Source of the DNA: a virus | Length of the DNA stretch: 64,000 nt | Reading direction: 5' to 3' (one strand) | IMG/VR virus record: IMGVR_UViG_3300031787_000051 | Location: 1-64,000 of that record | The notes under the pieces: generated by a model | What the model saw: only the letters and a program-made list of their open reading frames with translations | The model's database searches: none | Told to the model about the DNA's origin: nothing | In this document: positions 8,825 through 61,480 of the stretch, in pieces | Layout: each line of letters opens with the position of its first letter | How positions within the stretch are numbered: position 1 is the stretch's first letter | Translations under genes and position numbers: made by a program

Positions 8825-11254
8825 TTATCTTCTACTCTTTAGTAAAGTAGTATATTGATTATCTACGTTTTCATTCATCTTACTAGCTAAAACATCCATT
8901 TTTTCAACTATAACAGATAAAATATCATTAACATTATTAGATTTCATTTGAGATTTTTCGGGCATCTTAATAGTATTATCAATTGATTTTTTAAGTGTTT
9001 CTGCATAGTTACCTGTAATACTATCCATATTATCCGTATCTCTCAATATATTTTTACTATTCATTTCAAAATTAGCAGGTACGGCATCTATTTTCATATT
9101 TTGCATAGCATTTTGAAGTGATGCAAAAATGTCAGTGTTATTACTAGCACCGGGTTGTGCTGACATTAATTTTGATAGTAAATCTTCAGATAAAGAAACA
9201 TCAGCTGGTAAATTAATACCATTCGGTAAAGGTATTTTGGCATTTCCACCTAAATGTGAAACAAGGCTATTAGCTTGATTTGGATTCCTAGCGATACCAC
9301 CTCGCATAAATTTTTGTGTTGGTTGTTGACCATTGCTAGGAGCAGATGTACTTGTTCTTGGTTGTTCGTTAGTATTTACCGTCGCAGTAGTTGTACTTGT
9401 AGGAGTTTGAGGTGGTCCAACAGTATTTGCGGTAGCTGATTCTTTTGGTTGCTGATTCTTCGCTGCTTCCTTATTTGCCGCTTCTTCTTTTGTTTTACCT
9501 TCTCTTAAATTTTTCTCTCTTTCTTCTAATGCTTTTTTATATCCTTCAGTACCTAAAAGTTTTTCTAATTGTTGGGTTGTTCCCCTGTATGTTTCTTCTG
9601 CTTCAAGATAGTTGTATCTTTCTTTAACTAAAGATGGATTCTTAAGTAGGGCCTTTACAGAATTTGGATCTTCAAATTTTGATTTAGGTGATGTTCCTTT
9701 TTCTTTAAATAATTTTTCTATTCGAATCATTTCTTTATTTGATTCGATCTGTTGATCAAGTAATTCTTCAATAGAATCAAACGCAAATGGCATAGTAGGA
9801 TCTACTTTAGACTTATCACCGAAATTTTTAGCTAAGCCAATAAAATTTACAAACTTCGTTATACCTTTAGTTAATGCCTGCAATGAATAAATTAATCCTT
9901 TGAATGCAGCATGTACAGGTCCAGAAATTAATTTTATAAATTCATCAAACGCTCTGGTTAATTGAGTAGTTGCATCTTGAATCGCAACTTGACCATCTTT
10001 TATTTCGTCTTTTCTATCTTTGACATTTTTAACATCGTCTTTTACTTGCTGCGATGTGTTTTCACCAATCGTTTTAGATTGGAATTCCATTGTTTTTGCA
10101 GAAATCGCATAAACATTGCTTAAACCTTGCGCATCTAGTTGGAATCCTTTTCCTAATTTTTCAAATGTAGCCTTATTAGCTTGTTGAAATCTTCTTCTAA
10201 ACTCATCTTCTTTAATCATTCCCTTTTCGAATGATTGCACTGTTTCTACAAAATCTAAACCAGCCATACTAAATCGTTGCTGTAGCGCAGCAGCGGCAGG
10301 ACCAACGGCAGATCCCTTAGCAACAACTTCCATAACTGCTTTACGTGAGCCTTCATCAACTTGGCCTGCTAGTTCAACACCTCTTTGAATATTCAACTTA
10401 AGTTGTTGACCATTCTTTTGTTGCATTCTTTCTTGCAACGCTAGATTATATCCAATGTCTTTTAAATCGTTTTCTTGCCTTTTCTTAATCTCATCAATAT
10501 TTTCACCAGTTAAGGCACTTAACTCAACTAAATTTCTTATATAAGATAATGATTCTTTTCTTAAAGTTTCATTATCTTTGTATCTACGGCCACCTAATTT
10601 TATTTCATTAGCAAGATATGAAGCTTGTAATTGCGCTACCTTTTTTTGTCCTATACCTAAGCGTGTGAATTCTTCCCTAACAACAGGTTCCATCTCGACA
10701 ATTTTCATGAAGTTTTTAATACCAACGCCAGCTGTTGTGCCCAATCCTGTTACGTTGTTACCAAATTCAGCGACCACATCTACTAGTTGCGTAAATGCAC
10801 CGTCGCTAACAGTCCACTTCATTTCAAGTGCTAAATCTCTTAAGCCGTCGGTGCTAAATGCAGTAGCACCTCCCATCTCTGCTAATTTGTCATACCCCTG
10901 AATAAGAGTATCGTCTGTTTTTAAAACCTGTCCTACAAGTTTACCTACAACTTTTATTAATAAACCTGCGACTATACCAAAAGGTCCTAACAAGCTTACT
11001 AAATCACCTACCCCTGAAGCTGCTTGATCGATAGCAGATCCGTATTTTCCCATACTCCCCGAATTTTCAGTTAAAGTTCTTGAAAAGGATATGGCACTTC
11101 CGGCTAACTGCTCAACTCCGGCTTTAGCTCTTTCTATTCTTTCTCTTTTTTCTGCTTCTGCTTCTACTGCCCTACGTAGGGCGTTGGCAGCTTCCCTAGC
11201 CGCTCTGGAAGCATCTTCGCTTGTATCTCTTAAGTCATCAGGAATATCAGCCAT
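8825..11254 (-). CDS. Tape-measure-like tail protein, paralogue of the neighbour
   Basis: The 809-residue protein starts with a charged helix (residues 1-50). A very hydrophobic stretch follows near residues 90-115 (VSLLGPFGIVAGLLIKVVGK), then a domain shared with the 6059-8821 product (LVELSALTGENIDEIKKRQE against LTKLSALTGESRDKVAQEIA). A second hydrophobic region lies around 440-480, and a low-complexity Thr/Ala/Gln tail around 610-660. It has no peptidase domain. Hydrophobic helices plus coiled coil in a tail protein suggest a tape measure or its partner. It diverges from gp26, which in T4 is also near the hub and tape-measure genes. Confidence 0.65.
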   Translation of the reverse strand: MADIPDDLRDTSEDASRAAREAANALRRAVEAEAEKRERIERAKAGVEQLAGSAISFSRTLTENSGSMGKYGSAIDQAASGVGDLVSLLGPFGIVAGLLIKVVGKLVGQVLKTDDTLIQGYDKLAEMGGATAFSTDGLRDLALEMKWTVSDGAFTQLVDVVAEFGNNVTGLGTTAGVGIKNFMKIVEMEPVVREEFTRLGIGQKKVAQLQASYLANEIKLGGRRYKDNETLRKESLSYIRNLVELSALTGENIDEIKKRQENDLKDIGYNLALQERMQQKNGQQLKLNIQRGVELAGQVDEGSRKAVMEVVAKGSAVGPAAAALQQRFSMAGLDFVETVQSFEKGMIKEDEFRRRFQQANKATFEKLGKGFQLDAQGLSNVYAISAKTMEFQSKTIGENTSQQVKDDVKNVKDRKDEIKDGQVAIQDATTQLTRAFDEFIKLISGPVHAAFKGLIYSLQALTKGITKFVNFIGLAKNFGDKSKVDPTMPFAFDSIEELLDQQIESNKEMIRIEKLFKEKGTSPKSKFEDPNSVKALLKNPSLVKERYNYLEAEETYRGTTQQLEKLLGTEGYKKALEEREKNLREGKTKEEAANKEAAKNQQPKESATANTVGPPQTPTSTTTATVNTNEQPRTSTSAPSNGQQPTQKFMRGGIARNPNQANSLVSHLGGNAKIPLPNGINLPADVSLSEDLLSKLMSAQPGASNNTDIFASLQNAMQNMKIDAVPANFEMNSKNILRDTDNMDSITGNYAETLKKSIDNTIKMPEKSQMKSNNVNDILSVIVEKMDVLASKMNENVDNQYTTLLKSRR

Positions 11255-11322: not shown

Positions 11323-12156
11323 ATGAGCAGTATCGAACATAACCCACTTAAGCAATACTTTCGCAGACCAGGAATCTATTTAAAATTACCAACTCAAGGG
11401 AAAGGATATGGTCCTGATGTTTTGGTTATGACAGAAACTGGTGAACTACCAGTTTATCCTATGACTGCTATTGATGAGATAACCAGTAAAACACCTGATG
11501 CATTATACAATGGATCAGCGGTGGCTGAGATAATACGCAGTTGTGTACCTAGTATTAAAGACCCATGGGCTATAAGCAGTGTTGATTTGGATGCTATATT
11601 AGTTGCTATTAAAATAGCGACTAATGGTAATGATATGGATTTAGATACTACATGTCCAAATTGTAATGAAGATAGTAAGTTTGGATTAAATTTAAGTTTT
11701 GTACTTAATAACTTCGCCCCGGGTGATTATGATAGACCATTAATGATTGATAATTTACGTATTAAATTTAGACCATTAATGTACAAAGAACTTACTAATA
11801 GCACTGCAAGGCAATTAGAAATTCAAAGAGCATTTATCACTCTAAACTCTATGGAAGAAGGCCCAGAACGTGAGGCTAGAAGTACCGAAATTCTCAAAAT
11901 AATCGGGGACAGCACAATTGATGTATTAGTTAATGTTATAGAATACATAGCTACACCTGAAGCAGTAGTATCTGAAAAGGCTTATATTAAAGATTTTCTC
12001 AATAATACCGATAAGAAAACCTTTGAAATGATTCGTGAAACCAGCATTAAATTAAGAGAAACCACACAAATTAAACCATTACATATTGCATGTACACATT
12101 GTAAGCATGAATATGATCAACCATTCACGTTGAACATCAGCGATTTTTTCGAATAA
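11323..12156 (+). CDS. 26: Baseplate hub assembly protein, gp26-like
   Basis: The 277-residue protein belongs to the T4 baseplate protein family that includes gp26 (conserved YFRRPGIYLKLPTQGKGYGP at the N-terminus, then ELPVYPMTAIDEI). Two CxxC pairs, CPNC near residue 110 and CTHC near 257, look like a zinc site; each lies in a (T/A)C-x-x-C turn followed by a short strand. T4 gp26 is needed for hub assembly and is encoded next to gp51. Here the end of the gene carries a frameshift signal that would join it to a gp51-like domain. A strong AGGAGA ribosome site precedes the ATG. Confidence 0.85.
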   Translation: MSSIEHNPLKQYFRRPGIYLKLPTQGKGYGPDVLVMTETGELPVYPMTAIDEITSKTPDALYNGSAVAEIIRSCVPSIKDPWAISSVDLDAILVAIKIATNGNDMDLDTTCPNCNEDSKFGLNLSFVLNNFAPGDYDRPLMIDNLRIKFRPLMYKELTNSTARQLEIQRAFITLNSMEEGPEREARSTEILKIIGDSTIDVLVNVIEYIATPEAVVSEKAYIKDFLNNTDKKTFEMIRETSIKLRETTQIKPLHIACTHCKHEYDQPFTLNISDFFE

Positions 12157-12201
12157 AGCTTCTATACCTCGACTCCGAGGGTATCGGGAAGCTTATAGAA
12201 G
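12144..12201 (+). promoter_or_regulatory. Programmed -1 ribosomal frameshift signal
   Basis: T TTT TTC (12144-12150) is in the correct phase of the gp26 frame for tandem -1 slippage and lies just before the GAA TAA end. An 8-base spacer (12151-12158) follows, then a structured element: an outer stem CTTCTATA (12159-12166) with TATAGAAG (12194-12201), enclosing a GC-rich hairpin CCTCG (12167-12171) with CGAGG (12176-12180). The -1 frame is open from the slip site to 12380. Slippery heptamer, spacer and structure together match the classical signal. Confidence 0.8.
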
Positions 12202-12380
12202 GCATGGAGAAAGACGTTAAGGCTATTAAGAAAAATGCACAACGTATAGCCTGGTATATGCGCGGAGCTGTATCCTATGAAGATGTATTAAACATGAGCC
12301 CGGAAGAACTCCAATCATTAAACGAAATTATTGAAGAAAACCTAGAAACCACAAAAAAATCTCAGATGCCATTCTTTTAA
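12150..12380 (+). CDS. 51: gp51-like C-terminal domain made by -1 frameshift from gp26
   Basis: In the -1 frame the reading continues from the slippery site as RIKLLYLDSEGIGKLIEGME, then through a small helical domain (QRIAWYMRGAVSYEDVLNMS and EENLETTKKSQMPFF) to the TAA at 12378. The extension is about 76 residues. Its helix, then YMRGAVSYED, then helix pattern resembles the short partner domains of tail and baseplate chaperones. An internal ATG at 12204 exists but has no properly spaced ribosome site, so the fusion is the more likely product. T4 gp51 also follows gp26, but is a separate 249-residue protein. The gp51 name is by position. Confidence 0.65.
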   Translation, partial: RIKLLYLDSEGIGKLIEGMEKDVKAIKKNAQRIAWYMRGAVSYEDVLNMSPEELQSLNEIIEENLETTKKSQMPFF

Positions 12381-12838
12381 GAGATTAGCTTCGCTAATCT
12401 AAGTCCTTCACACTCATTCGCTATCGCTCATTCGTTTGTTCGGACTTATTCTTATTATAGGATTATATTAACTAATTGCCGATTTGAATCCATGGTAGTG
12501 CTATTCAGCACTACCATTGGTAAAGGTTACTTGCCATGACCGTCACCCATGTTGTCTATTCCCCGACTAACTAGCCCTTTTCGCTGTCAATCGCCACCGG
12601 TTGCTCTGTAAAGTTTATTGGGACTGTAGTGAGACTATTATTTCTTATAAATAACGCCTCAGCAACGCATGTTACATAGTCGCAAGACAAAGTTAACTAT
12701 GTACTCATTCAGGGTTCGCTCCACACGATTGCCCTGTCGGTGTTCCCTAAGATTAATCTTAGGCGTACTCCAGATCCGTCAGCACAGCACTACCTGTACG
12801 TCCTCAAGGAGGGTCAACAACTTGACCGTCGAATTGTA
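12381..12838. other. GC-richer hairpin-dense intergenic region, candidate structured RNA
   Basis: This 458-base stretch between convergent genes has no credible protein frame. About half its bases are G or C, against roughly a third in neighbouring genes. Perfect hairpins include 12382-12400 (8-bp stem), 12492-12517 (11-bp stem, 4-base loop), 12673-12704 (TACATAGT with ACTATGTA), an 18-base palindrome at 12746-12763, and 12812-12827 (6-bp stem). The decamer CAGCACTACC occurs twice (in the 12492-12517 hairpin and near 12786), which allows alternative pairing. An exact TATAAATA late box lies at 12646-12653 on the plus strand. Both flanking transcripts run into it, so parts may be terminators. 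Orientation and function are unknown. Confidence 0.5.
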
Positions 12839-13399
12839 TTAAATGTCTATTGTAAGTAATGAAGTGCTTGACTTGGTGTCTGATGTGCCTGTGTTGCCTG
12901 AATATGCCTTGAGTAAATTTTTATTGTGAGCCATAAAATGATCAAATTCTATTATATACCAATCACCAACTTTTTTACTTGCATAAAAAGTAAAATTATC
13001 AATGATCCATGTTAAGTGACATTGCACTGCTACATATCTTCCTATTCTATTAAACTTCATAAAAAGTATGTTGCAATCACCCGGGTCAGCTACATCAAGT
13101 AATTGTTGTATCCAACCATCTAAAACCTTATGTTCACCTGTTAGCAACAAATGAAATGCAAAGTCACTATAGAACTTACATTCTGCATTGAATTTTGGAA
13201 AACTTTCTCCGGGAACAATATCCCCTTTGAAACTGCGAATCTGGCCCTCATGTAATATCTGAGTGCGATTCTGATTTTTGCCACCTATATAAGCACCGGA
13301 TCCGGGCGCACGAATAAAGCTCTCTCCGTATGTTTCACTGAGATACTTAGCAATTTCTCGCTCAAATCCTGATCCTTTAGCTTTCTGTGGTGATGGCAT
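12839..13399 (-). CDS. PD-(D/E)XK nuclease, Holliday-junction-resolvase-like
   Basis: The 186-residue protein begins KGSGFEREIAKYLSE, a helix with Glu13, followed by GD60 and E73-C-K75 (FNAECKFY). This is the E...D...ExK catalytic pattern of the PD-(D/E)XK fold, as in archaeal Hjc resolvases and related phage nucleases. A Trp/Phe-rich second half (HLTWIIDNFTFYASKKVGDW) completes the fold. Near gp46/gp47 it probably acts on branched recombination or packaging intermediates; a T4 gp49-like role would be functional, not homologous. Exact substrate is unknown. Confidence 0.65.
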   Translation of the reverse strand: MPSPQKAKGSGFEREIAKYLSETYGESFIRAPGSGAYIGGKNQNRTQILHEGQIRSFKGDIVPGESFPKFNAECKFYSDFAFHLLLTGEHKVLDGWIQQLLDVADPGDCNILFMKFNRIGRYVAVQCHLTWIIDNFTFYASKKVGDWYIIEFDHFMAHNKNLLKAYSGNTGTSDTKSSTSLLTIDI

Positions 13400-29370: not shown

Positions 29371-32300
29371 ATGGTTAATAAAGTAAGAACTTTAGATTTT
29401 CTTCCTGAGATTTTTAGAACCAAGCCTAATGAAGAATTTTTAGGCGCGACATTAGACCAATTGGTTCAGACACCTAACACACAACGTGTCGAAGGATATA
29501 TTGGAAGAAAGTTTGAATATGGTATTGATCCCAATGCCGTATATGTTAAAGAACCTAATTCAACAAGACAGAATTATCAATTAGAACCCGGAGTTGTCTT
29601 TACTAAACCAGAGACTTCTGTAGCAAAAGATTTTATAAGCTACCCTGGATTAATTGATGCTATCAAAACACAAAATGGTATTACTGATAACCATTCTTTA
29701 TTATTTAGAAATGAATTTTATAGTTGGGATAGTTTTGTAGACTTAGATAAGGTTGTAAATTTTAGTCAGTATTATTGGTTACCTGACGGTCCTGATCAGG
29801 TACCAGTCACAACAGAAACAGTAAACAGTGAAGCCGACTTTACAATCATATCAGATTCATCAGTTTATGCCGTAAGAGAAAATTTTAAAAGAATACCTCA
29901 AAGTAATCCTACACTAAAATTAGTTCGTGGCGGCACATACAAGTTTATAGTAAATCAAAATAGTAACTTTTGGATACAGACTGATCCTGGTATAAATGGT
30001 AAAAATCCTATTAGACCTAATGTAACATCTAGAGAAATTTATGGTGTTGAAAATAATGGTGCAAATGCCGGTATAATCGAATTCACTGTGCCACAAGCAT
30101 CTGATCAGGATGAGTGGATTTTTTCTGGTGAAAATTATGTTGACTTAATTTCTGATACACCGATAAGTGAATTACATGGTAAAAAGTTAAGTGAAGTTTT
30201 ATCTAAGTATCCTAAGGGATTAATTGACGGTATTAATCAAATCCGTGAAAAAAGAGTTATATTTTTAAATTACAAACCAGGTCAATCAGTTGAACTACCG
30301 ACTCCGTACGATCTCTATTCACTAGAAGAAAAAGAGTTTGATGATGCTCCAAAAACTATTCCAAATAATAATTATTATAAAATTAGATTTTTACAACTAG
30401 ACAATGATTTTATAATAAGCGTAGATGAAGATGGTGAACTTCCTATAGCAGAAAAGATTATAGCAACGAACGGGAGAAAATACGTTAGTCAAGAGTTTGT
30501 CAGATTGCCTGTAGGTGAAATAGCAAAAATACCTATTATAACTGCCCCATTAGATACTCTGTATTATCAAGATGAAAGCACACCTAATAAAGTAGGAACA
30601 ATTAAATTACTAGATGCCAAAGTTAACAATGCTATTAATATTGAAACTGATGTATTAGGGAAGAAAAATTATACAGGTCCTAATGGTGTACAATTTACAA
30701 ACGGGTTAAAAGTTAAATTTGTTGGTAATATTATTCCAGCTCCATATAAAACAGGTAGTTATTATGTTGAAGGAGTAGGGACAAGTATAAAATTAATTAA
30801 AGCAGAAGATTTAAATATTGTAGAACCATTTGGGCAACTAATTTACACAATCTATGATAATGAAGGATTCGATACACTAAGATACGGTGGCAGAACTTCA
30901 ATGCCAGCACAAAAAGATTATATTACAATTAATCGTAGCGCAATCAATAAAAATGCATGGAGTCGCAGCAATCGTTGGTTTCATATAGATGTTCTTAAGG
31001 CAACAGCAGAATACACTTCGGGTGATGTAGTTTTAGCCGCACTTAATAATAGAGAAAACAGAGCAAATAGACCTATCTTAGAATTTTATCCTGAGCTAAA
31101 ATTATTTGATTCAGGAACCATTGGTAAGGGCTACGTAGACTTTATCGATAATACTACAACTGACGTAATGAATAGTAATCCAACTATAGGGGTAGTTGGC
31201 AGAACAGAATATTATCCTGATGGGAATCAGTATAAAGCTATTCAAGGTAGTAGAGTTATTTTTGCAAACGACAGTGATCCAAATGTAAGAAATAAAATTT
31301 TCATTATTAACTTTGCATCAATAAACGAAACACAAGAACCAACCATTGTTCTTACAAAGGCAGCAGATGGCGACATACAAGACCTAGATCAAGTTTATGT
31401 TAACTTTGGGACAGCAAACAGTGGAAAGAGTTTTTATTTTGATAAAGGATATTGGAATCAAGCACAACAAAAAACATATGTAAATCAACCACCATTATTT
31501 GATATTTTTGATAAAAACAATATAAGTTTAGCCGATAAAGATTTTTATCCAGGCAGTAATTTTATAGGTTGCACGTTGTTTGAATTTAAACCTGGTGTGG
31601 GCGAAAATGACCCAGTATTAGGGTTTCCATTAGCATACAGTTCAGTAGCCAATATTGGAGATATCAGTTTTAGAATATCATTGAATGAAGATGTATTCAA
31701 ATATTCTTTAATGACAGGACCTGTAACAGAAAAAGTTAGCATAGGTTATCCTCATCGCTATACGGATAGATATGAATTTACGAGAGAATTGGGTTGGGTA
31801 AAAACAGTTGGTGAAAGCTTTCAGTATCAAGCATATAATTTTACATATAATCCTATACTAAGACAAAATTCATTTACATGTAATGCAGTCGCTATAGATC
31901 AGAACGATAGCCCATGGCCAGTCATTAAGGTCAGTGTAAATGAAAATATATTAACCAGTGATCAGTACACAGTTACTAAAACTGATAAAGAAACAATTGT
32001 TACACTACTAAATCCTCCTGTAACTGAGTCCCCTGTTGAGGTACTTATACACAGTGAGGGACCATTGGGTGAGGGGGCATACTATACTATCCCTATTAAC
32101 TTAAGCAGCAACCCATTTAACACACCGATAGCGTCATTAAGTTTAGGTGATATAAGAAATCACTATCAAACTATTTTTGTTAATAGTCAACAACTGACAG
32201 GACAAGTTTTTGGATCAAACAATTACAGAGATGCGGGTAATTTAATCACGTATGGTGATAAAATTATTCAAAACAGTGCCCCATTAATTTATGCTGCGGC

Positions 32301-35300
32301 ATGTCTAAGAAACAAAAATTTTAATTTATTTGATTCATTAACTTATAGTGCAAATGAATATGTTAATTTTAAATTATTAATTACAAGTATTATTGAAACA
32401 GTAGAATATAGCGGAGAGAGTGCATCTGATTTATTAGATTTAGCACTACAACAAATCGCAAGCTATAAGGATCAAAACACTTCATTCTTTTGGAGTGACA
32501 TGATACCTAGCAGAGCACCTTTCGCTGCAAATACCTACGCATTCAACGCATTTATAGATACAAGTTTCTTTCCATTAAGCAAGATTTACGATTTTAGTAA
32601 AGCAAGCTATGATGGAATTTTGATATACCTAACTAAAGAAACAGAGAGTGAGACACGAATAACGCAGCTATTAAGAAATCGTGATTATACAATTAGCCAA
32701 GACGAACCAAAAGTTATTATTACATTAGATTTAGAACCTGGTGATAAGATTACAATAAAAGAGTATAATCAAACTTATGGTAGCTTCGTACCAAATACTC
32801 CAACCAAGTTAGGTTTATATCCTTTATTCGAACCAAAAGTGGTTTACGATGATACATACGTTTTCCCTGCATACTTCATACAAGGTCATGATGGCTCATA
32901 TACTAGAATATATGGTAAAGTATCAAAAGAAGGTACTTTATTAGATTTTAGAGACAGAGTATTATTTGAATTTGAATGCAGAGTTTATAATAATGTTAAG
33001 TTAAATGTAAACACTTTTGTATCCAACGATGATGTTCTATCCGGTTATTTTAGAAAAACTGATTTTACATATGAATTTACAAAAAATTTATATACGACAT
33101 ATTTCTTAAACTGGATAGGTCAACACAGAGTGGATTATAAAACTCAATATTTCTTGCCAGACAATCAATTTACCTATAATTTTGATCAGTGTAAGTTCAA
33201 ATTAGACGGTGAAGGGTTTAAGCAAGGAAATTGGAGAGGTATATATCTACATCTATATGATACTACAACTCCGCACAAATCCCCATGGGAAATGTTAGGC
33301 TTCGTTTCAAAACCATCATGGTGGGACGAACGATATGGTGCAGCACCATATACATACGATAACAAGATTTTATGGGAAGATTTAGAAAATGGAGTCGTCT
33401 ACAATGACGGTGACAGTTATACTATACCAACAAGAAAGAGACCAGGTTTAAGTAAAATCATTCCAGTTGATAGTAGAGGTAATTTAAGAAATCCATTAGA
33501 TTTTCTAACTATTGGAACAGACCAACCTACATATGACAGAGGTTGGAATGCAGGTGATTATGGTCCGCAAGAATTTTCATATTGTAAAAGCAGTACCTAT
33601 CCATTTGATTTAATTAAAATATTAGCCATAGCTAGACCAGCTAAATTTTTTGCTCTAACCCAAAATTTAGATGCATACAATAAAAATGCTGAATTTAATC
33701 AGTGGTTAATTAACGACAGAAGCAGAATAACAACGAGTTTCGTAGATTATGGTTCTGGAAAAGCACAGCATGGATATATAAATTGGATTGTAGATTATGT
33801 TCAAAGCTTTGGTCTAAACGGAAACGCAACATTTAAAGAGCTTTTAAATAATTTAGATGTTAGATTAGTATATCGCATGGCTGGTTTTAGTGATAAAGAT
33901 TTACTAAAATTTTACTTAGAAAAAAGTTCTGCTGGCTCAAAAAGCAATTCATTATTAATACCAGATGGTAGCTTTGCTTTGATGTTATACGAAAATGAAC
34001 CGTATGACAGAGTAATTTATAGTAGCGTGATTGTTCAAAAGACTAATAAAGGATTCAAAGTATACGGTAATAGCCAAAACAAGTCTTACTTCGTACAATA
34101 CACGCCTAATTACAATGGTAGATATAAGAATATAACTGTACTTGAAACAACAATATATGTTTCGGAAAACTTTTATAAAAATGAAATAATTGTTCCTTAT
34201 GGAAGTGAGTTCGTTTCATTAGAAGCATTATCAGAATTTATTATTAACTATGGCAGATACCTTGAAGATCAGGGTATGAAGTTTACGAACATTGAAGAAG
34301 GTATAGAAATTAATTGGCAGCAAATGATTGCCGAATTAATATATTGGAATTTAACTGGATGGGAAGCAGGCAGTACAATTAATATCAACCCAAGTGCAAA
34401 TGGTTTAGTCATTGATAAAGAAAATGCTATAGTTCAACCACTTACACTATTCCAACAAAACTATGCACTGAATCAAAACCTTGTTCCTATACAACTTAAA
34501 GATTTAGTTATATCTAGAAAAGGCACAGAATTTACATTACAAACTCTTAATACAGGAGATTCTGTATCCTATTTCACTGCTAATATGAGTACCATTGAGC
34601 ATGGAATCGTGTTTGATAATTATACTCAGTTTAATGATACTATCTATAATCCAATAACAGGATTGAGACAGCATAGAATATTAATGAAGGGTACAAAAAC
34701 TGCTGAGTGGAAAGGCACGCTTGATACCTACGGATTTATATTAAATCAAGATAACATTAAAGATTGGCAATCTAATCAGAGATATATTAAGGGTGAAATA
34801 GTTTACTATAAAAACAGTTATTGGATGGCAGCGGATAGAATAGCTGCCGAAGCAACCTTTAATCAAACCAAGTGGATTAAAACAGATTACGAAAAAATTC
34901 AAAAAGGTTTATTACCTAACGCAAGTAATCGCAGTTTGGAAAGTGAACTATATTACGACACTACAAATACTAATTTAGAAAGTGATGCCAACTTATTAGC
35001 GTTTGGTTTAATTGGTTATAGACCAAGAGATTATTTAAATGCAAGTAACTTAGATGATATCTCACAAGTTAATGTTTATAAGAACATTATTTCTGAAAAA
35101 GGCACAAGATTAATAGCAGATGCAGTTCAAAATATCACACTTACTACCGGTAAAATAAGCTATGATGTTTACGAAAACTGGGCTTTAAAAGTTAGCGAAT
35201 TTGGCGGCGTTGAAAATGAAAACTTTGTAGAATTTATATTTGATGAGACAAAATTAACAGGTAATCCTGCAATCGTTGGAATCGTTGACAAAATGATTAT

Positions 35301-38300
35301 ACCTAACGTAATGCAGTCAATACCTTTAAATTCTGTCATAAATTATGGAAGACCATTCAGTGAGAACAAAATCGCACCTGTCATAAAAGCAAATTATATT
35401 GAGAAGTTACCATCGGCAGGCTATGTGCATTTTGATGATGTAAGAGTTACAGGATACAGTATATCGTCATTAAAAAATAATCCAATAACAGCAAATGATG
35501 TTAATATGGATGATTATATTTGGGTTGCAGATGAAAAAGATGACTGGTTAGTAAACACTGCAATTTCAATTAGCGAAAAGAATTCTACAGTAAAAGTAGT
35601 TGAAGCTGTCAATAATCTAGACGGAACAATCACATTAAGGTTTGAAAATCAACACAACTTAGTTTTAGGTAATCATTTCATTTTATTGAAATTTGATTAT
35701 AGAGTTGATGGTTACTATGAAGTTAAAAACGTTACAACCTTAGATACTATTGTAATTGAAGTTACTTTGCCTAACAATGTGTTAAGTATTGTAGGTGAAG
35801 GTATTGTTGCTAAGTTTCAAAATCAACGTGTATCTACCCCAAGCAGCATTAACAATTTACAGTTAATTAACAGTGGCTTTAGTAAAGCAAAAGTTTGGGT
35901 AGATGAAGATACCGATGGTACTTGGGCAGTTTATCAAAAAAATATAAATTATATAAAGCAAGACATTGTAAAACCAAATAGTACAGGAACATTTGGATCA
36001 GCAATAGCGCATCACTCTAAATTGGGATATTTTGTATCCGACGCAGCACAAGGTAAAATTTATAGATATCAACCAGATGATTTTGAAAAATCAAAATACA
36101 GAGCCAATGAAGTTATAGATAAATTTTTAGGCGTGACCATTGGAGCCGGATTCGGTACACAAATAGCTATCGCTCAGGATACTATGATTGTGACTAAACC
36201 AGGAACAAATAGCACAATTTATGTATATCAAATTAAACGAACACGAACAGGTAATTATGTTGAAAAACCTGCAATAACAATTAATTCTCAGCGAGTAGGA
36301 GATTCAATTGCATTATCGGGTGATGCTAATTGGCTATATGCATCTTCTCACACAGTATCAGGTAATTTTGTAAGAACATATAAAAAGACTGCTGCTCAAA
36401 CCTATGAGTTTGTGAAAACTTATAACTTAGGCGGAGACTTACAGGACTTTTCTAAGATTACTCTTTCTACAAACTACAACGGTAGTAAATTGTTTATCGG
36501 CGCGCCATTAAAGAATTATGGTACATCACCCAATCAAATAGTAAACGTGGGTATGGCTGCTGTTTTAAACAGAGTTATTGAAAAGATTGATGTTAAGCGT
36601 GATTATGTTGAGGATACCGAGGTTTATTATAATCTATCAGTTTCGGCTCCAACAACAGATCATTATCTAGATGTTTTTGTTAATGGTAAGCTGATTGAAA
36701 ATACAAAATATCAAATTACAGTAGCTGGACTACAATTCTTGTATGATCTTAAAGCGGGAGACGTAATTGAAATATCATATCCTGATTTATTCAAGACACA
36801 AGAATTTCAATTAACTAATCTAGCAGAAATTCGTCCTGGTAACGCTTTTGGTCATGCATTAGACACAAATAGACATGGATCTGAATTACTAGTTGGTGCA
36901 CCATTCTTTGTAAGTGAAAATAATTTAGAAGGCTTAGTAGTACGCTATACTAACTATGGTAAAAAATACGGAATAATACAGGCTACTAATAACTATTCAC
37001 TTGCTAGCTCAAGTAAAATATTAATAAACGGATATCAAGTTACATTACCCACTAATCTACTAGGTGCAGTAAATGCTATTAATGATGCTAACATAACTAA
37101 TGTTTATGCAAGAGTAGTAGATAATAAACTTGTTATAGGATTAGTTGACCCTAACTTAGGTCCTATAGAAGAAAAATTAACAATTCAAGCACTAAATTCT
37201 ACAACACTACAACAAATTGGTATACTTGAATATCAAGAAAGTCAAAGAATCTCTGATCCTGAGAACGTAGAGGGTGCATCACAATTTGGTTTCTCAATCA
37301 AGTTTAATGAATATAATTCTTTTGCTGTTGGAGCACCAACTAGTACAAGAAAATCATTAACCACGTTCGATTTTACAGATGATCTAGACACAACTAATGA
37401 CACTATATTTGACAACAACTATACGAAATTTGTTGATGAATTGGGGTCAGCCGGCTCAGTTTATATCTATGACTATTTGGCTAATCATAATGAAAGCGCA
37501 GACAAATTAGGTAAATTTGTTTACTCACAGGCTGCAAATGATACAACATTAGATATTGGTGCTAACCCGCATTACGGTAAGGTTATTGAATTTAAAGATT
37601 ATAATCTAATCATTGGATGTCCTGATTATAAACCAGGTGTTGATAATGGTAGAATAGTATTTTATGAAAACAAACAAAACTTAAGAAACTGGCATGTGCT
37701 TAGAAAATCTAATGATGTTATTGATGTTAATAGATTACAAAACATTCAAATATTCAATGCCGAAAACAATGAAAGAATTGAGTCTTTGGATTATATAGAC
37801 CCTCTACAAGGTAAATTGTTAGGAATCGTAACTGAAAATATTGATTATATCAGTAGTCAAGATCCTGCAGGATATAACTCTCAATTAACAACTGGTAATT
37901 TAGTTTGGGGAGATGCATTTGTAGGTAAAATATGGTTTGACACTTCGACAACAAAGTTTTTAAATTACCATCAAGAAGATGTACTTTATAATGCACAGAA
38001 CTGGGGTAAAATATTCCCTGGCAGTACAGTCACAATTTACACGTGGATAGAAAGCAATGTGTTGCCTGTAAATTATCAAGGACCAGGTACCCCATATAAT
38101 ATAGAATATTATACTTCATTGTATAATGTTGACAACTCGGGTGCATTGACAAACAAATATTATTATTGGGTACGTAGTACAAATATTTTGAGTAGCGATA
38201 AAACATTACCTGATTCAATATTAGAACAATATATTACTGATCCACAAAGTTCAGGTATAGGTTATTTTGCCGCACTACAAAACAATGTGTATGGGTTATT

Positions 38301-41300
38301 TAATGCTATAGATTCTATTAAAGGTAAGTCTACGGGATTGCATATTGGATTCACAGATAAAATCAAAAAAGATGATTCTTATAATGAATTTAAATTAATC
38401 AAAGATGGTAATCCTAATGATTTCTTACCAGGAGTACCTAGTGCGTATACTGCATTTGAAATGCCAGAGAGTTTATATGATAAACTACTTGATAGCTTAT
38501 CTGGTATAGACGAGAGAGGTAATTTAGTCCCTGACATACATCTTCCAAAGCTATTACAGCAAGGAATTAAAGTAAGACCAAGACAAAGTTTCTTTAGTAA
38601 TAGATTAAAGGCACTTGAGAATTACTGCAAGTATGTAAACAGTGTTTTAATCAAGCATCCTATATCAGAAATTTTAACACCAAGCTTTATCGGAGAATCT
38701 AACAAAGAGTCAGTACCAAAAGGAGCTCCGGGCTTTTTAACAACTAGCGGAGAGTTTTTCAACACACCTGATTATTGGGAGCATGTATATTGGTGGGCAG
38801 ACGGCTACAATAATAATACAAAGCCTGATGTTGAAGTGTTAAAGTATTATGATTTAGCCACATTGAATCCATTTGAAAACATGTTAGCTGGTGTAACAAC
38901 CAACAGTGATGGCAAACGTGAGGTATATCTTTATACTAATGGTGATTGGGTACGAGTTGGTCTTGAGCAGGGCACCATTCAAATAAAAGAATCATTATGG
39001 AACTATGAGATACTTGGATTGGGATTCGGAAATACATTCTATGATACAGATAGTTTTGACGTTTTCCCTCACACAGAAACAAGATATATTGTAAGGTCCG
39101 TGACTGAAGAAATATTTACAAACGAATTGTTGATTCATAGAAATAAGAGTTTAATTACCCTATTTGAGTACATTATAAGTGAAGCTACATCAACAAATTG
39201 TTACCTAACATGGTTAAACAAAACAAGTTTAGTAGATGTAACTAATACACTACGTGAGTTGAAAGCCGACTTGAATTATCGTTCAGATAATCAAGATTTC
39301 TTGCAAGGATATCTCAAAGAGATTAAGCCTTATCATGTTGTTATGAAAGAGTTTGCAATAAAGTATACAGTAAATGATACATATGATGGTCAACTTACAG
39401 ATTTTGATTTACCGGCGCAATATGATTTTAATTTAGGTAAATTTATTACTCCTAATCTAACTTTCTTCCCTGTAACAGCAGTAGGAGAATTTGGACCAAC
39501 TGACGCAATATGGAACAGATCAATTTATTTTGATTGGTTAGATAATTATGGATTATCTTTAACTGGACAAAAGTCTGTAACAATAGGTTCATTGACAAAG
39601 TATATTACTCCTGTTAGTGAAACAATTTATATTGATAATGCTTATGGATTACCAGTAAACGGAGTAGTCAAAATTAATAATGAATATATTGGCTACGCAG
39701 GTGTTGATAGAGATGCAGGAAAACTCACATTCGTAAGCAGGGGTTTACGAGGCAGTGTGGCGTCTGATCATAATCCAAATAGCAAAGTTATTATAGATTT
39801 GCCTGAGGTCGTAGTCCTTAATACAGGTAGAAACTACATTGATGTACCGACTGTTATAGCATATATTGACACAACTAGATATCCTGCTCCATTACGTGAA
39901 GCGGTTCTTGAACCTATTATGGCAGACGATAAAGTAGTAGGTGTGAAAGTTGTAGATTCAGGTGCTGGTTACGCAGCAACACCTGAAATAATTATCCAAG
40001 CTTCAAAAACATTTAAGTTCAATAGTTCTGTTGTAAACTTTTTAGTTAACTCAATTAATATTGATAGTGTGGATTTAAACACAGGCGACGTAGTAAGATT
40101 CGTGCATGGTGAAGGTAACCCAATTAAGGGTCTTGCAAATAAAAAATATTATCACGTAAGAGTACTTTGGAAAGATGAAGTGTTTGGAGCTAAATCTATA
40201 ATCGCTTTATATAGCACAGCAGTTAATGCACAGCTAGACAACCATAGAATTGACTTAATAGACACTGGTTCTTCTACTGATAATAAACTAGAGTTAACAG
40301 CTAGAGCAGTTGCAGTTGCAAGTAACACACCAACCAGAGAGATTTCTACTAAACTTAAGTTTGACAGAACAAGCTACGTAAGTAAAGTTACGGAATGGAA
40401 ATCAGGTGAATTTTATGCTAGCGAATTCTCTCCCTCAGGAGATGAGTCAAGTACTTCCTCAATATCAGCTTCAGGTTCAACACTATCAAGTGTACAGCAT
40501 CGTGTGTTTGATATACAAGAAGTAACACTTGAAGAAGGCACAAATGAAGTTGCAGTATCAATTGATTATACCGGTTCTAGTTTATCACCAGGACAATTAA
40601 AAGGTCTACCTTTGTATTTCTACGTAGTTCCACCTACATACATGTACCCTCAGCATGTTAAAGTTAAAGATATAATTATAGGTAACCAATACAAAATTTT
40701 ATCTTTAGGCGATACTAATTGGAACTTTATGGCAGGGACAACAGGCTTAACATATAACGTAGGAGATTCAATCAAGCCTGTAGTAAGAGGGATGGGCACC
40801 GGAGTTGTCACAGCATTTTTAGCACCTAATAACTTAGAGTACGACAAATGGTATGTGATTGCCGAGTTAGGAGATACGAGATGGGATTTAATTGCTCAGA
40901 CCGAGGGAATTATTTATCAGGTAGGAAACAGAATTTGGATTGAAGATTTATCACCATCTAATTTTGGATCTACTCCAGGCAAAGCAATAGAAGAGGGCCA
41001 TGCTCTAATCAAATTCTACAGACCTAACTTTGTTTTCAACAAAGTATACAATGAGTATTTTGTAGAAGTGTTTAACAAAGGCACAATCTACAATGTAGGT
41101 GATAAAATTACTGTAGACGGTGTTTATTTAGGTGGTGTTAGCGGAGCAAATGATGCAACAATTAAGGTAGTCTATACACAGGCTAACAAAATGGAATTAT
41201 ATGAATTGTCTGGGTTGGCAGTAGGTGCCTTTAAGCAATACTATGTGAAACCTATAAATCAAACTCAGCTAAAAGTTTATCATGATGCCCCAATGGTTAG

Positions 41301-44300
41301 ACCTGTAATTGCTAGTCAAGTTTGGAAAGGCAACAAGAGTTACAAACGTGGTGACATTGTTTTAGCTAATGGAAAATACTATAGAGCAATAGCTGATGTT
41401 GAGCCAACAACTGTCAGTGCAAGAAGTATCGTAAAAGATAAGAGTTATTATGTAAAAACAGTTGGATTAATAGACTGGACCGTAATCGGAGCCGACACCG
41501 CAAATGAATTAGCAGGTACTGAACCATTTACAGCTACAGCAAATGGCAACATCTTTATAAACGCCTCTGCATTTGTTTATTTAAATGAGTTTAATCCTGC
41601 AGGTTACGTCAGATTAGAAGATAACCCGTTCCCATTTGATAATAACAGCTATATGTACTTACCTGAGCCTGTTCAATTAACTTCAGGATACTCACGTACT
41701 ACAAGTAGTATAGTAAGCTTAAACAACAGACTGTACAAGTGCTTGGTTAGTAACAATGACACAGAGTTTGATTTTGACAAATGGCAAGTTTTAGATAGTA
41801 ACAAAGAAGAATTAAATGCATTAGACAGAATCGTGGGTTTTTATCAGCCCACTACTAACATGCCAGGTAAAAACTTACCATTATTATTAACAGGTGTCGA
41901 TTACCCTAATAATACATATTATTCAAATAAGTTTGATGAAAATTATACTTTAGATACACAACTAAAAGATCAACCATTCTATCCAAAAGATATAAAGATT
42001 AGATCCGTATTATGGGATAATGAAAAGTATCTTGCTGTAGCAGACGGTAGAGATTATTCTATGATATTGTTGAGTTACGATGAAGGTATTACTTGGCAAA
42101 TTAAGAGAATAAGTGCTGATGTACTAGAAGTTTCCGACGTGATACATTCTGGAACACATTATGTATTAACAACTAGAAAGCCTAGCAATCCTGTCTTTAT
42201 AAGTTACGACGGGTTGTCATGGTTAGGTTTAGGTAGTTACACACCTTATGATAAAGTTGACTTTGACGAGCCCGGTGAAGCATGGGATAGCTCATCATTA
42301 ACTGCTCCCAGCGGCGGGCTTTATAATGTAGCTAGCCATAATGATTTTTATGTGGCAGCAGGTGATCAACTTGTAGCAAGTACAGACGCATATGCTTGGG
42401 ACAGCGTTTATAGCTTCCAAAGTAGAACAGAAGCAAGAGCAAATTATATCGACTACATTAACAGTGAATTCTATGCTGGCTTTATTGCAGTTGGATATGG
42501 ATTAGATGTTATTGAAGATCCAACTGAAGAAGTATCAGCGCAAGTAACAACTATTGGCAGAGTATTATTAAGTGAAAATGGTAGAGCATGGACACCAATA
42601 TATCCACACCCAACTAATAATGGATTGAACACAGTAGTAGGTGGACCTGAAATGATTGTTTTAGGTGGCGATAACGGAACAGTATTGTATTCTACGAACA
42701 TGCAGAATATATTTGCAGGAACAATAGAAGGTGATACTATAACAGATAACATTTTAGCTGGTTGTTATGCTGCTAATACGTTTGTGTTTGTAGGACAGAA
42801 TGGATTAATCTTAGTTAGTTATGATGGTATGTCATGGTCTAAGATTACCTCAGGAACGAATCAGAATCTTAATAGTGTTACACACGATGGACAACATTTC
42901 TTAGCAGTAGGTAACAATGCTACAATTCTACGCAGTTGGGAAGGATTAGTATGGCAAAATGTATCTGCAATAGGCGGTGCAAATACATTCTATGAAGTTA
43001 AAGGTGATCCTTTCACTTCTGGATATGGTCCTGAAGAAATGGTTCCAGGAGCTATTACTGATCAATTCTCAATGACAGTAATTACAAGATCAGGCAGTAC
43101 ATGGAATCCTGAAGTATATCAACATAATGGATATAAAGTTATAGGTAACAAAGTATCCCCTAATGGTGTAGAAATTGATTTCTCTAATTTCTCACAAGCA
43201 CCAGCACAATTAGCATTATCTATAATGGATCCGTTATCTAACCTTAGTAAAATGATTCATCCAAACGTTACACCAACTGACAATAATGAATACACATATT
43301 CAGTTGATTGGATTCAAAAGAAAATCACACTAAACAAAGAGATTAGAGAAACAGAAATTATTTTAGTTGAAGTTTATGAATTCGGTAATGGTAATCAATT
43401 AGTAAGAGCAACGTCAGATGATATACCAGTTACTATAGATGAATCCACAGGACATAGCCAAATCGTATTCAATATAAAATATGAAGAATTATTGACTGCT
43501 GATCCTGCAGTTTACATAAACGGAGAAAAGAAAACATTTACTAATGATTATGTAATAGCTTCTACTGATAACGGCAGAACAAAGCTGTTATTTGATAGAG
43601 TTTATGATACAACCGTTAATTTCATAAGTTTTGTATTATTTGGTAGCACGGTACAAAATTATGGTTATTCATTGCCAGAAACACAAGTTTTTGAATTTGA
43701 CAGTACAGGTCAAACTGGTCTAGCGTTAGATTATCAATTAATAGAAAATGAAAATGATTATATTCCTAGGATTGTTAGAGTCAATGGATTAGAACTACCC
43801 ATCACTGACTACACTATTACAATAGGACCTGTGTCTACTTTGGCAATTATCCCAACGTTGAACGAGGGCGATATAATAAGTATCACTACATTTAATGACA
43901 CTAGAGAGCAGTATTTCTTACAAGAAAGCATTTCTACATTGAGAGTTACTCCGTTATTAGCTGTTGCGATTGACAAGGATGTGGTATATTTGTATATAAC
44001 AACAGAAACAGACGAAGATCCTGGATTAACTACAGGTGATTTAATTCAGATAGATGGTATTTCTGGTACTAACCAATTAAACAATAATACGTATTACATG
44101 AAGTTAGAAACGAAATTTAGTGAAACATTTACTGAATACGATGATGAAGGTACGGAAACGTCTTACACTAAAGATGTGTACCCAATCACATTGTGGTTTA
44201 ATGATTCTTTAAGTAGACCAGTTACTAGTAGGTTCTTGTCAGAATATGTCGGAGGTGGATTCGTGTGGAAGTATGAAGATACACATGTAATACCTCAAAC

Positions 44301-60895: not shown

Positions 60896-60922
60896 TTGAC
60901 AATCTTTCCGAATAAATATAAA
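60896..60922 (+). promoter_or_regulatory. Promoter of the tmRNA gene
   Basis: TTGACA (60896-60901), a 15-base gap, then TATAAA (60917-60922) resembles a host sigma-70 promoter. An overlapping AATAAATA (60911-60918) matches the phage late box. So the tmRNA could be made early by host enzyme and again late. Confidence 0.6.
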
Positions 60923-60923
60923 C

Positions 60924-60995
60924 TACAGGTTATTGCTGTATGAAGCAACCCCAAAAGGGTTCTGGACGCGGGTTCGACTCCCGCCTGGTCCACCA
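60924..60995 (+). ncRNA. ssrA: tmRNA acceptor piece (permuted ssrA, 3' part encoded first)
   Basis: This segment ends in the T arm GCGGG-TTCGACT-CCCGC and acceptor strand CTGGTCC-A-CCA (CCA at 60993-60995), preceded by the near-universal tmRNA block GGACGCGGGTTCGA. Two hairpins lie upstream (TACAG/CTGTA and AACCC/GGGTT). The strand CTGGTCC pairs with GGGCCAG at 61077-61083 downstream, including the G3-U70 wobble recognised by alanyl-tRNA synthetase. In an ordinary tmRNA this part is at the 3' end; here it precedes the tag. The exact 5' end is uncertain. Confidence 0.85.
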
Positions 60996-61076
60996 AAAGC
61001 AAATGGCTTCGGATACTGTGCGGCCGCTACGGTTCCTGAATGTTGGTATAATAAGTAGCTCCAACTTGCTTTTGAT
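60996..61076 (+). other. Intervening segment of permuted tmRNA precursor
   Basis: These bases join the two tmRNA pieces and should be cut out. Its ends pair: CCAAAAGCAA next to the CCA end with TTGCTTTTG before 61077 extend the acceptor stem. This would hold the precursor together for cleavage by RNase P and 3' nucleases. Confidence 0.75.
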
Positions 61077-61240
61077 GGGCCAGACATGGTTTCGACAGGG
61101 TCAAGAGTAGGCGAGTGGACAGCACGGTAGGCGATGACCGTAAATCAAGCAAAATTATAACTGCAAACGCAGCTAACGATGAGGTTTTTGCTCTAGCAGC
61201 ATGATCTCCGGGGGAACTATCCCTTGTTACCAAAAATAGT
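61077..61240 (+). ncRNA. ssrA: tmRNA coding piece with tag ANAANDEVFALAA
   Basis: The piece starts GGGCCAGACATGGTTTCGACA, matching the tmRNA acceptor strand and D-loop region. AGGGTC can pair with GGTTCT of the acceptor piece as helix P2. After ATAACT the resume codon GCA (61163) opens the tag GCA AAC GCA GCT AAC GAT GAG GTT TTT GCT CTA GCA GCA, stop TGA at 61202-61204. The tag ends in ALAA, a ClpXP-type degron. tmRNA frees stalled ribosomes and marks the peptides. The 3' end is set before the terminator and is approximate. Confidence 0.88.
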
Positions 61241-61265
61241 AATAGGGACTTCGGTCCCTATTTTT
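61241..61265 (+). terminator. Rho-independent terminator of the tmRNA gene
   Basis: AATAGGGAC-TTCG-GTCCCTATT followed by TTT: a 9-bp stem with TTCG loop and T tract. Confidence 0.9.
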
Positions 61266-61266
61266 A

Positions 61267-61274
61267 ACTAAATA
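61267..61274 (+). promoter_or_regulatory. Late-promoter box ACTAAATA, five bases before ATG
   Basis: ACTAAATA, then ATAGT, then the ATG at 61280. The string TAAATAATAGTATG is identical to that before the gene at 4275, on the other strand 57 kb away. Confidence 0.6.
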
Positions 61275-61279
61275 ATAGT

Positions 61280-61480
61280 ATGTGGATTCTCATTATCAGT
61301 ATGTATTTGCCACAATCTTATGGCTTTACACAAAGTCAGGGAGTTATACAGGCTCCTCAGCCTAGTTACGAAACATGTATGCGTGAAAAAGAAAGAATCA
61401 GGGCTACTTGGTATACAGATGGTTACAGAGTAAGTCCAAGATGTATCTACATTAAATATTACAATTCACCCGGTGGTTGA
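61280..61480 (+). CDS. Small two-cysteine protein with hydrophobic N-terminus
   Basis: The 66-residue protein has a short hydrophobic start (MWILIISMYLPQSYGF), then YETCMREKERI and VSPRCIYIKY. The plan matches the proteins at 60697 and 61481. It probably leaves the cytoplasm or stays in the inner membrane with a disulphide. The late box five bases upstream suggests a leaderless message. Its stop directly abuts the stop of the convergent gene at 61481. Confidence 0.6.
   Translation: MWILIISMYLPQSYGFTQSQGVIQAPQPSYETCMREKERIRATWYTDGYRVSPRCIYIKYYNSPGG

Follow-up and report, generated by a model that had tools for sequence, protein, structure and literature searches.

A probable programmed -1 frameshift joining the phage baseplate chaperone gp26 to a gp51-like domain

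We analysed a 64,000-nucleotide stretch of viral DNA (positions 1 to 64,000 of IMG/VR virus record IMGVR_UViG_3300031787_000051; hereafter the window), in which one gene very probably yields both a short gp26 and a longer gp26–gp51 fusion through programmed -1 frameshifting at the heptamer T_TTT_TTC. The original prediction, that gp26 and a gp51-like domain are joined in this way, is supported by the sequence tests reported here, and the sequence observation behind it is confirmed overall: all 38 clusters of slip-type genes keep the heptamer, as against 18.9 expected.

The gp26 gene and its slip site

The source record of the window is 84,877 bases long and includes genes for a major capsid protein, a portal protein, and an SbcC/SbcD-type nuclease. 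The features at the end of gp26 are as follows.

11323–12156, + strand: gp26, 0-frame short form, 277 aa (open reading frame; family T4_baseplate, PF12322)
12144–12150, + strand: slippery heptamer T_TTT_TTC in the gp26 frame, a canonical -1 heptamer of the X_XXY_YYZ type
12151–12156, + strand: spacer of 6 nt, counted to the first stem pair that is broadly conserved among relatives (12157)
12154–12156, + strand: 0-frame stop TAA, the second codon past the slip site
12157–12193, + strand: predicted compound stem-loop, outer helix 12157–12163/12187–12193
12164–12168/12180–12184 and 12169–12171/12176–12178, + strand: inner helices of the stem-loop
12150–12380, + strand: -1 frame, putative gp51-type helical domain, 76 aa (long form together with gp26)
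12204–12380, + strand: 58-aa open reading frame starting at the earliest NTG of the -1 frame, an ATG

The 0-frame product matches PF12322 over residues 55–277 (E 3.7e-18; 66.4 bits, gathering score 24.5) and PHROG 150, “baseplate hub” (E 2.7e-17). Its AlphaFold2 model has a pLDDT of 91.3, and a BFVD search with gp26 returned T4-type hub proteins. The gene ends GAT TTT TTC GAA TAA; the heptamer is thus present in the gp26 frame, with an open -1 frame behind it, just as had been described. The domain in that frame begins RIKLLYL and ends KKSQMPFF.

The genes adjoining gp26 lie on the opposite strand, and the 809-aa open reading frame beside it (8825–11254) could not be shown by Pfam or PHROG profiles to be a tape measure. 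Rfam found nothing above its gathering scores in 11800–12900. A small hairpin directly 5′ of the T6 run (12128–12150) resembles an intrinsic terminator; two such sites were found, with 1.0 expected by chance. Past the gp51 frame lies an inverted repeat (12492–12517) of 11 bp without mismatch, its loop being 4 nt long.

Elsewhere, the window carries a permuted (two-piece) tmRNA gene at 60903–61295 on the + strand, called as tmRNA* by ARAGORN with the tag ANAANDEVFALAA and matched by the Rfam models tmRNA_permuted (E 6.9e-28) and beta_tmRNA (E 1.6e-42). As a virus-borne tmRNA of betaproteobacterial type, it may hint at the host. A 5246-aa open reading frame (29371–45111, + strand), scanned in two halves, gave CBM_5_12 as its only Pfam match at E 1e-4; this match lies in the second half and is just over the cut-off, no single stretch passing.

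Conservation of the heptamer and the -1 frame

A tblastn search with gp26 returned 62 phage records, from which we picked 16 named jumbo phages for diversity. All 16 carry the heptamer at the conserved Phe–Phe (T_TTT_TTC in 15, T_TTT_TTT in XacN1) and, in an open -1 frame, a related domain. An IMG/VR profile search with gp26 gave 64 loci, one of which (L048) ends before the C-terminus; the other 63 all have the heptamer, with a final C in 53 and a final T in 10, and a -1 frame open for 70–79 codons. When the gp26 of cyanophage DSL-LC02 served as query, the best 80 of 127 loci included one that ends before the C-terminus (L158); the heptamer is present in 79 of the 79 readable ones (78 with C, 1 with T), the -1 frame reaching its stop after 58–66 codons in 78 and being cut by the contig end in L112.

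Searches were also run from the domain side. With the cyanophage-type -1 domain alone as query, TTTTTTC stands exactly at the junction in all of the best 80 of at least 596 loci, and the 0 frame ahead of it has no stop for 180 codons or more; over the first 120 domain bases, none of these loci is identical to one found by DSL-LC02 gp26. With the window's own -1 domain, TTTTTTC at the junction, an upstream 0 frame of 180 codons or more, and a -1 frame of 76 codons occur in each of the best 80 of 140 loci, none of which shares its first 120 domain bases with the IMG/VR loci found by gp26; these two sets of 80, like the DSL-LC02 set, are nearest relatives and not random samples.

Grouped at 60% gp26 identity, the 164 slip-type genes form 38 clusters, which are not fully independent. 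Clustering removed the overlap between IMG/VR loci and named records (such as L040/Atu_ph07 and L076/RaK2), and five of the clustered genomes were hand-picked (DSL-LC02, Ah1, S-PM2, Cr30, and IC12). Because they are without the heptamer, two-gene genomes of the T4 type were not clustered, nor were those of the Det7, K397, and Cygsa01 types; every clustered gene is thus of the slip type. Within this set, T_TTT_TTY occurs in all 38 clusters, and the expectation of 18.9 is that predicted from codon use given the amino acids (log10 P -12); T_TTT occurs at 67 of 379 other codon–Phe pairs of the cluster representatives. The second Phe codon is TTC in 33 of the 38 clusters, TTT making up 73% of Phe codons (p 2e-14). 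When the -1 frame is entered at the 9278 other codons of gp26, the median run is 4 open codons and 58 or more are open in 0.05% of cases, as against 58–79 at the slip site.

Since the relatives keep both heptamer and frame, a chance origin of the slip site is excluded. The comparison across related phages that had been proposed as a check therefore came out in favour, with heptamer and frame kept while other codons drift, and a -1 stop ahead of the domain, named beforehand as evidence against the idea, occurs in 0 of the slip-type relatives read to the end.

Candidate stimulatory elements

The window's stem-loop has a predicted energy of -17.5 kcal/mol (z -2.8), a stability reached by 1 of 200 shuffles, and z is -1.9 when 60 nt are folded. 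The stable compound stem-loop originally described, with its 8-bp outer stem, thus stands for the window; the 8-base spacer does not, the distance being the 6 nt given above or 5 nt if counted to the window's own first A–U pair.

Among 11 window-clade sequences, 80% of stem cells are paired and the covariation score is 0.297, compared to 0.207 in shuffles (0 of 500 as high); five pairs have changed on both sides, compared to 1.8 in shuffles (4 of 500 as high), a number also reached when the register is slid by +2. RNAalifold, unaided, kept only the outer seven stem pairs. Among 51 distinct relatives, 83.3% of stem cells pair (shuffles 78.1), both sides have changed in 48 cells (shuffles 23.0), with a covariation score of 0.256 (shuffles 0.184); none of 500 shuffles matches any of these three values, and all three exceed those of six slid registers. 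By contrast, two further measures in the same 51 are at shuffle level: 6 pairs have changed on both sides (shuffles 5.4; equalled or exceeded in 194 of 500), and there are 20 pair types (shuffles 20.3; equalled or exceeded in 358 of 500). We take the support for the stem as moderate, because the structure tested came from folding the window itself, such shuffles can be outdone by related sequences, and the same bases also code. For the 60 nt past the slip site, the mean z in the 38 clusters is -1.30 versus -0.22 for the control, a modest gain in stability over shuffles, and in several clusters the fold is no better than in shuffles.

Cyanophage-type genes have a GGAGG-like, that is, Shine–Dalgarno (SD)-like, element ∼10 nt upstream of the heptamer. 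Its Glu codon is GAG in 25 of 28 cyanophage representatives, compared to 29% elsewhere (p 6e-11), and its Gly codon shows no significant bias (p 0.07). The string GGAG stands upstream in 43 of the 80 cyanophage-type domain-first loci (best 80 of at least 596); in the window and the listed members of its clade, the GGAGG-like upstream element is absent. A putative stimulator of -1 frameshifting is therefore found beside the heptamer in both groups, as a stem in the window clade and as an SD-like element in cyanophages, and is not universal. The heptamer itself, as U_UUU_UUC, is placed among the more efficient ones in Escherichia coli in the available text of PMC4066793.

Identity of the -1 domain

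In S-PM2, the cyanophage -1 domain is annotated as gp51, and this protein matches PHROG 634, “baseplate hub assembly catalyst” (1.9e-27). Compared by hhalign, the -1 domain of cyanophage-type and allied phages matches the C-terminus of T4-type gp51 at 97.9% (E 5.5e-13), the alignment running from the junction on, and the cyanophage-type rows on their own do so at 96.1% (E 3e-9). As judged from these profiles, the cyanophage -1 domain is clearly gp51.

For the window, hmmscan gave no match of the domain to PHROG 634 at E up to 1. The window-type domain, that of the jumbo phages, aligns with the cyanophage-type and T4-type domains combined at 79% (E 1.6e-5), over 32 columns only, and with the T4-type alone at 69%; an alignment forced end to end gave 16%, and smaller alignments against gp51 gave 6.7% and 20%. 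Calling the window's own domain gp51 is thus a weaker claim, with a shared C-terminal motif, the size, and the position as its main grounds, so that the term “gp51-like” used for it is upheld by position and by the strong homology of the cyanophage domain, less so by the window's own match of 79%. The domain had been described as helical and conserved-looking; a related domain occurs across relatives, and the AlphaFold2 model (pLDDT 90.5) has predicted helices at residues 2–6, 9–37, 43–47, and 51–71.

In BFVD, the domain's top match, to an uncharacterised protein of a phage, has E 0.0024, so that none falls below 0.001; phage Moogle's “tape measure chaperone,” at rank 8, is not significant (E 0.74). 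Fold matches in the PDB, with a best Z of 5.6 for the domain and of 8.8 for gp26 (the latter covering 55 residues in a two-helix stretch), reflect common helical arrangements only, and for this reason we claim no kinship with tail assembly chaperones; these are absent among the 50 PDB rows listed, and a shared fold could still exist.

Annotation, published accounts, and loci with a shorter slip sequence

None of the 22 annotated slip-type records (L001–L016, L086, L087, L170, L171, L174, and L273) joins the two frames. The -1 frame is listed, in whole or in part, as a separate gene in 18, and nothing is listed in the other four (Paride, PA5oct, RaK2, and Ah1). If the frameshift reading holds, this would be a correctable annotation error, and gp26 and the -1 frame should be joined.

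The same reading would bear on two published puzzles. In the available text of Sullivan et al. 2010 (PMC3037559), gp51 of cyanophages and marine vibriophages is without its first ∼200 residues, and gp51 is missing only in Aeh1. The Aeh1-type locus L176 reads GAT TTT TTC, with a gp51 domain in -1, and vibriophage ValKK3 reads GAT TTT TTC GTA TAA TG, again with gp51 in -1. A slip would explain both the “truncated” gp51 of cyanophages, which would look short, like that of vibriophages, because gp26 supplies the missing ∼200 residues, and the supposed absence of gp51 from Aeh1. Within a full-text PMC subset, which is without preprints and most subscription journals, we found no report of a frameshift joining gp26 and gp51; the frameshift in PMC4168068, as far as its available text goes, concerns another gene.

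The heptamer is absent from the Ackermannviridae phage Det7, from 15 loci found with Det7 gp26, and from Vibrio K397 and Pseudomonas Cygsa01. All of these (L172, L173, L089, and L178–L192) have a T_TTC tetramer in the same place and the domain in -1 at the same spacing. K397 and Cygsa01 have TAATG at the overlap; Det7 has only ATT there, with no NTG until inside the domain. With T_TTC and the domain spacing retained, the Det7, K397, and Cygsa01 types could either shift on the tetramer or start separately.

Coding constraint and alternative explanations

Where the -1 frame could be started by an ordinary initiation codon bears directly on whether gp51 might instead be a separate small protein with its own start in the overlap (12204 in the window), coupled to the end of gp26, the T-run then being incidental. 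We hold this to be improbable. The first 8 codons after the slip site include an NTG in 17 of the 38 clusters and an ATG in 10, so that a separate start is possible in those 10, and in ValKK3 and Cr30 the start codon overlaps the gp26 stop. However, in 16 of the 38 clusters, the first NTG comes at codon 15 or later or is absent; the -1 frame of Paride (L003) has none at all, and 59 of 80 window-type loci (best 80 of 140) have none before codon 15. The separate genes annotated in 18 of the 22 slip-type records, such as S-PM2 gp51 and ValKK3 gp51, agree with this alternative, as do Cygsa01 and K397, with their TAATG and no heptamer, yet it would leave the kept heptamer and the preference for TTC unexplained, and the SD-like element of the cyanophages stands too far upstream to serve a separate start (∼25 nt, counted on L111).

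The pattern of selection also speaks against a separate start. Over codons 1–18, the stretch that precedes the window's first ATG, pN/pS in the -1 frame of nine window-clade sequences is 0.47, and it is 0.37 thereafter (other frames 0.78–1.46); in 54 distinct sequences found with the window's own domain, the values are 0.47 and then 0.35 (other frames 0.90–1.52). Because pN/pS is low in codons 1–18 too, these sequence comparisons indicate that purifying selection on the -1 frame sets in from the slip site onward, not from a start codon. In the structural model, moreover, initiation at 12204 (codon 19) would cut through the predicted long helix 9–37.

Slippage of RNA polymerase on the T-run, by which some mRNAs would gain a base and open the -1 frame, would have the same effect on the protein and finds a run of 6–8 T in all 38 clusters. 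The run is exactly 6 T in 32 of them, however, which is short for polymerase slippage, and the stem and the SD-like element fit stimulators of ribosomal shifting; we regard it as highly improbable. That the two frames result from decay of an in-frame fusion or from an error in sequencing, to which the single base separating them might point, has negligible probability and was already refuted by the survey, given the same arrangement in 63, 79, 80, and 80 readable IMG/VR loci as well as in named phages, and purifying selection in the -1 frame.

The T4 gene pair and the origin of the arrangement

T4 has gp26 and gp51 as two full-length genes on opposite strands. Its gp26 ends GAG TTC TTT GAG TTA CTA TAA, has no slip site, and is followed by gene 25. 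Its gp51 matches PF12322 at residues 1–201 (E 3.9e-52) and PHROG 634 at 147–246, and an alignment of the gp26 profile with that of gp51 spans 191 columns (E 4.8e-20). Because of its PF12322 part and this profile alignment, T4 gp51 is, on sequence grounds, a gp26 paralogue with the gp51 domain fused in frame. The statement that T4 makes the two as separate proteins is therefore right as to the two genes and needs amending as to gp51, which is more than the domain. This two-gene form without a heptamer at the end of gp26 is seen in five of five genomes (T4, 44RR, EC-F2, an Acinetobacter phage, and Proteus SJ_PmiM), the gp26 label in EC-F2 having been assigned in this analysis.

In a 37-row tree, rooted by midpoint only, the N-terminal parts of gp51 form one clade (100/99), and gp26 and gp51 of the two-gene phages together form another (99/95), whose neighbour is the slip-type Ah1/Aeh1 (96/91). 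The gp26 copies of the two-gene phages do not form a clade of their own; those of 44RR and EC-F2, which are on long branches, fall nearer gp51 (93/82 and 90/26). A single duplication is the simplest reading of the two-gene phages and is not shown by the tree. Slip-type genes on both sides of the two-gene clade favour an ancestral slip site with later duplication, and duplication seems to have replaced frameshifting in the two-gene phages. If so, T4 gp51 would be the long form of gp26, and T4's need for both genes would be explained.

Putting these lines together, we think it likely that frameshifting is ancestral for T4-type hub chaperones; that a dosage-tuned pair of short and long gp26 is a core feature in jumbo phages, cyanophages, and part of the Straboviridae, much as G/GT is in lambda but in an unrelated family; and that T4 gp51 is a frameshift product frozen by gene duplication.

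Proposed mechanism and comparison with known systems

Most ribosomes would read gp26 through to the TAA at 12154–12156 and make the short form. The stem-loop would slow ribosomes, and a minority, on T_TTT_TTC, would move back by one base in a tandem slip in which the two Phe tRNAs pair anew with TTT TTT; the slipped ribosomes would go on to add the 76-aa helical gp51 domain and so make a minor long form. One mRNA could in this way provide short and long forms in a set ratio, and, by analogy with T4, the two may jointly serve as chaperones while the baseplate hub or the tape measure is assembled. T4 and its near relatives would have the same pair by duplication, with gp26 as the short form and gp51 as a second copy that has the domain in frame. 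We infer, in particular, the ribosomal shift, the ratio of short to long form, the partners, and the role of each form.

In T4, according to the available text of PMC3004832, gp26 and gp51 are hub assembly chaperones, gp51 being essential and absent from the particle, and T4 genetics place gp26 in the hub. The gp26 of CBB is annotated as “structural protein.” On account of the T4 hub genetics and the CBB annotation, we suggest that the short form may stay in the virion.

Among known systems, lambda gpG/gpGT offers a likeness in principle: a single gene encodes a short chaperone plus a longer, rarer one that arises from a -1 slip close to the end of the gene, and both products are absent from the virion (PMC5009743, available text). 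If our reading is true, this principle of short and long chaperones would extend from lambda-type phages to T4-type hub chaperones. There are differences. The protein gp26 belongs to PF12322, a family of T4-type contractile-tail phages, and may be in the virion; we take the lambda-type chaperone families to differ from PF12322. The pair in the window is not directly upstream of a tape measure gene, its neighbours lying on the other strand. In Cr30, an annotated tape measure gene does come after the pair, with one small gene between, and the PHROG tape-measure matches of the following genes are weak in Cr30 and ValKK3.

The T4 pair resembles that of the window in that gp26 is of the same family and gp51 combines a gp26-like part with the C-terminal domain, and differs in that the long form is made without frameshifting. 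The “short gp51” of cyanophages and vibriophages is a further likeness, with the same -1 domain right after gp26. Finally, the cyanophage sites recall E. coli dnaX, which combines an SD-like element, a heptamer, and a hairpin: they, too, have an SD-like element ∼10 nt upstream and a heptamer, with a hairpin in some. The heptamer of dnaX is A_AAA_AAG and its shifted product is the shorter one, whereas the cyanophages and the window have T_TTT_TTC.
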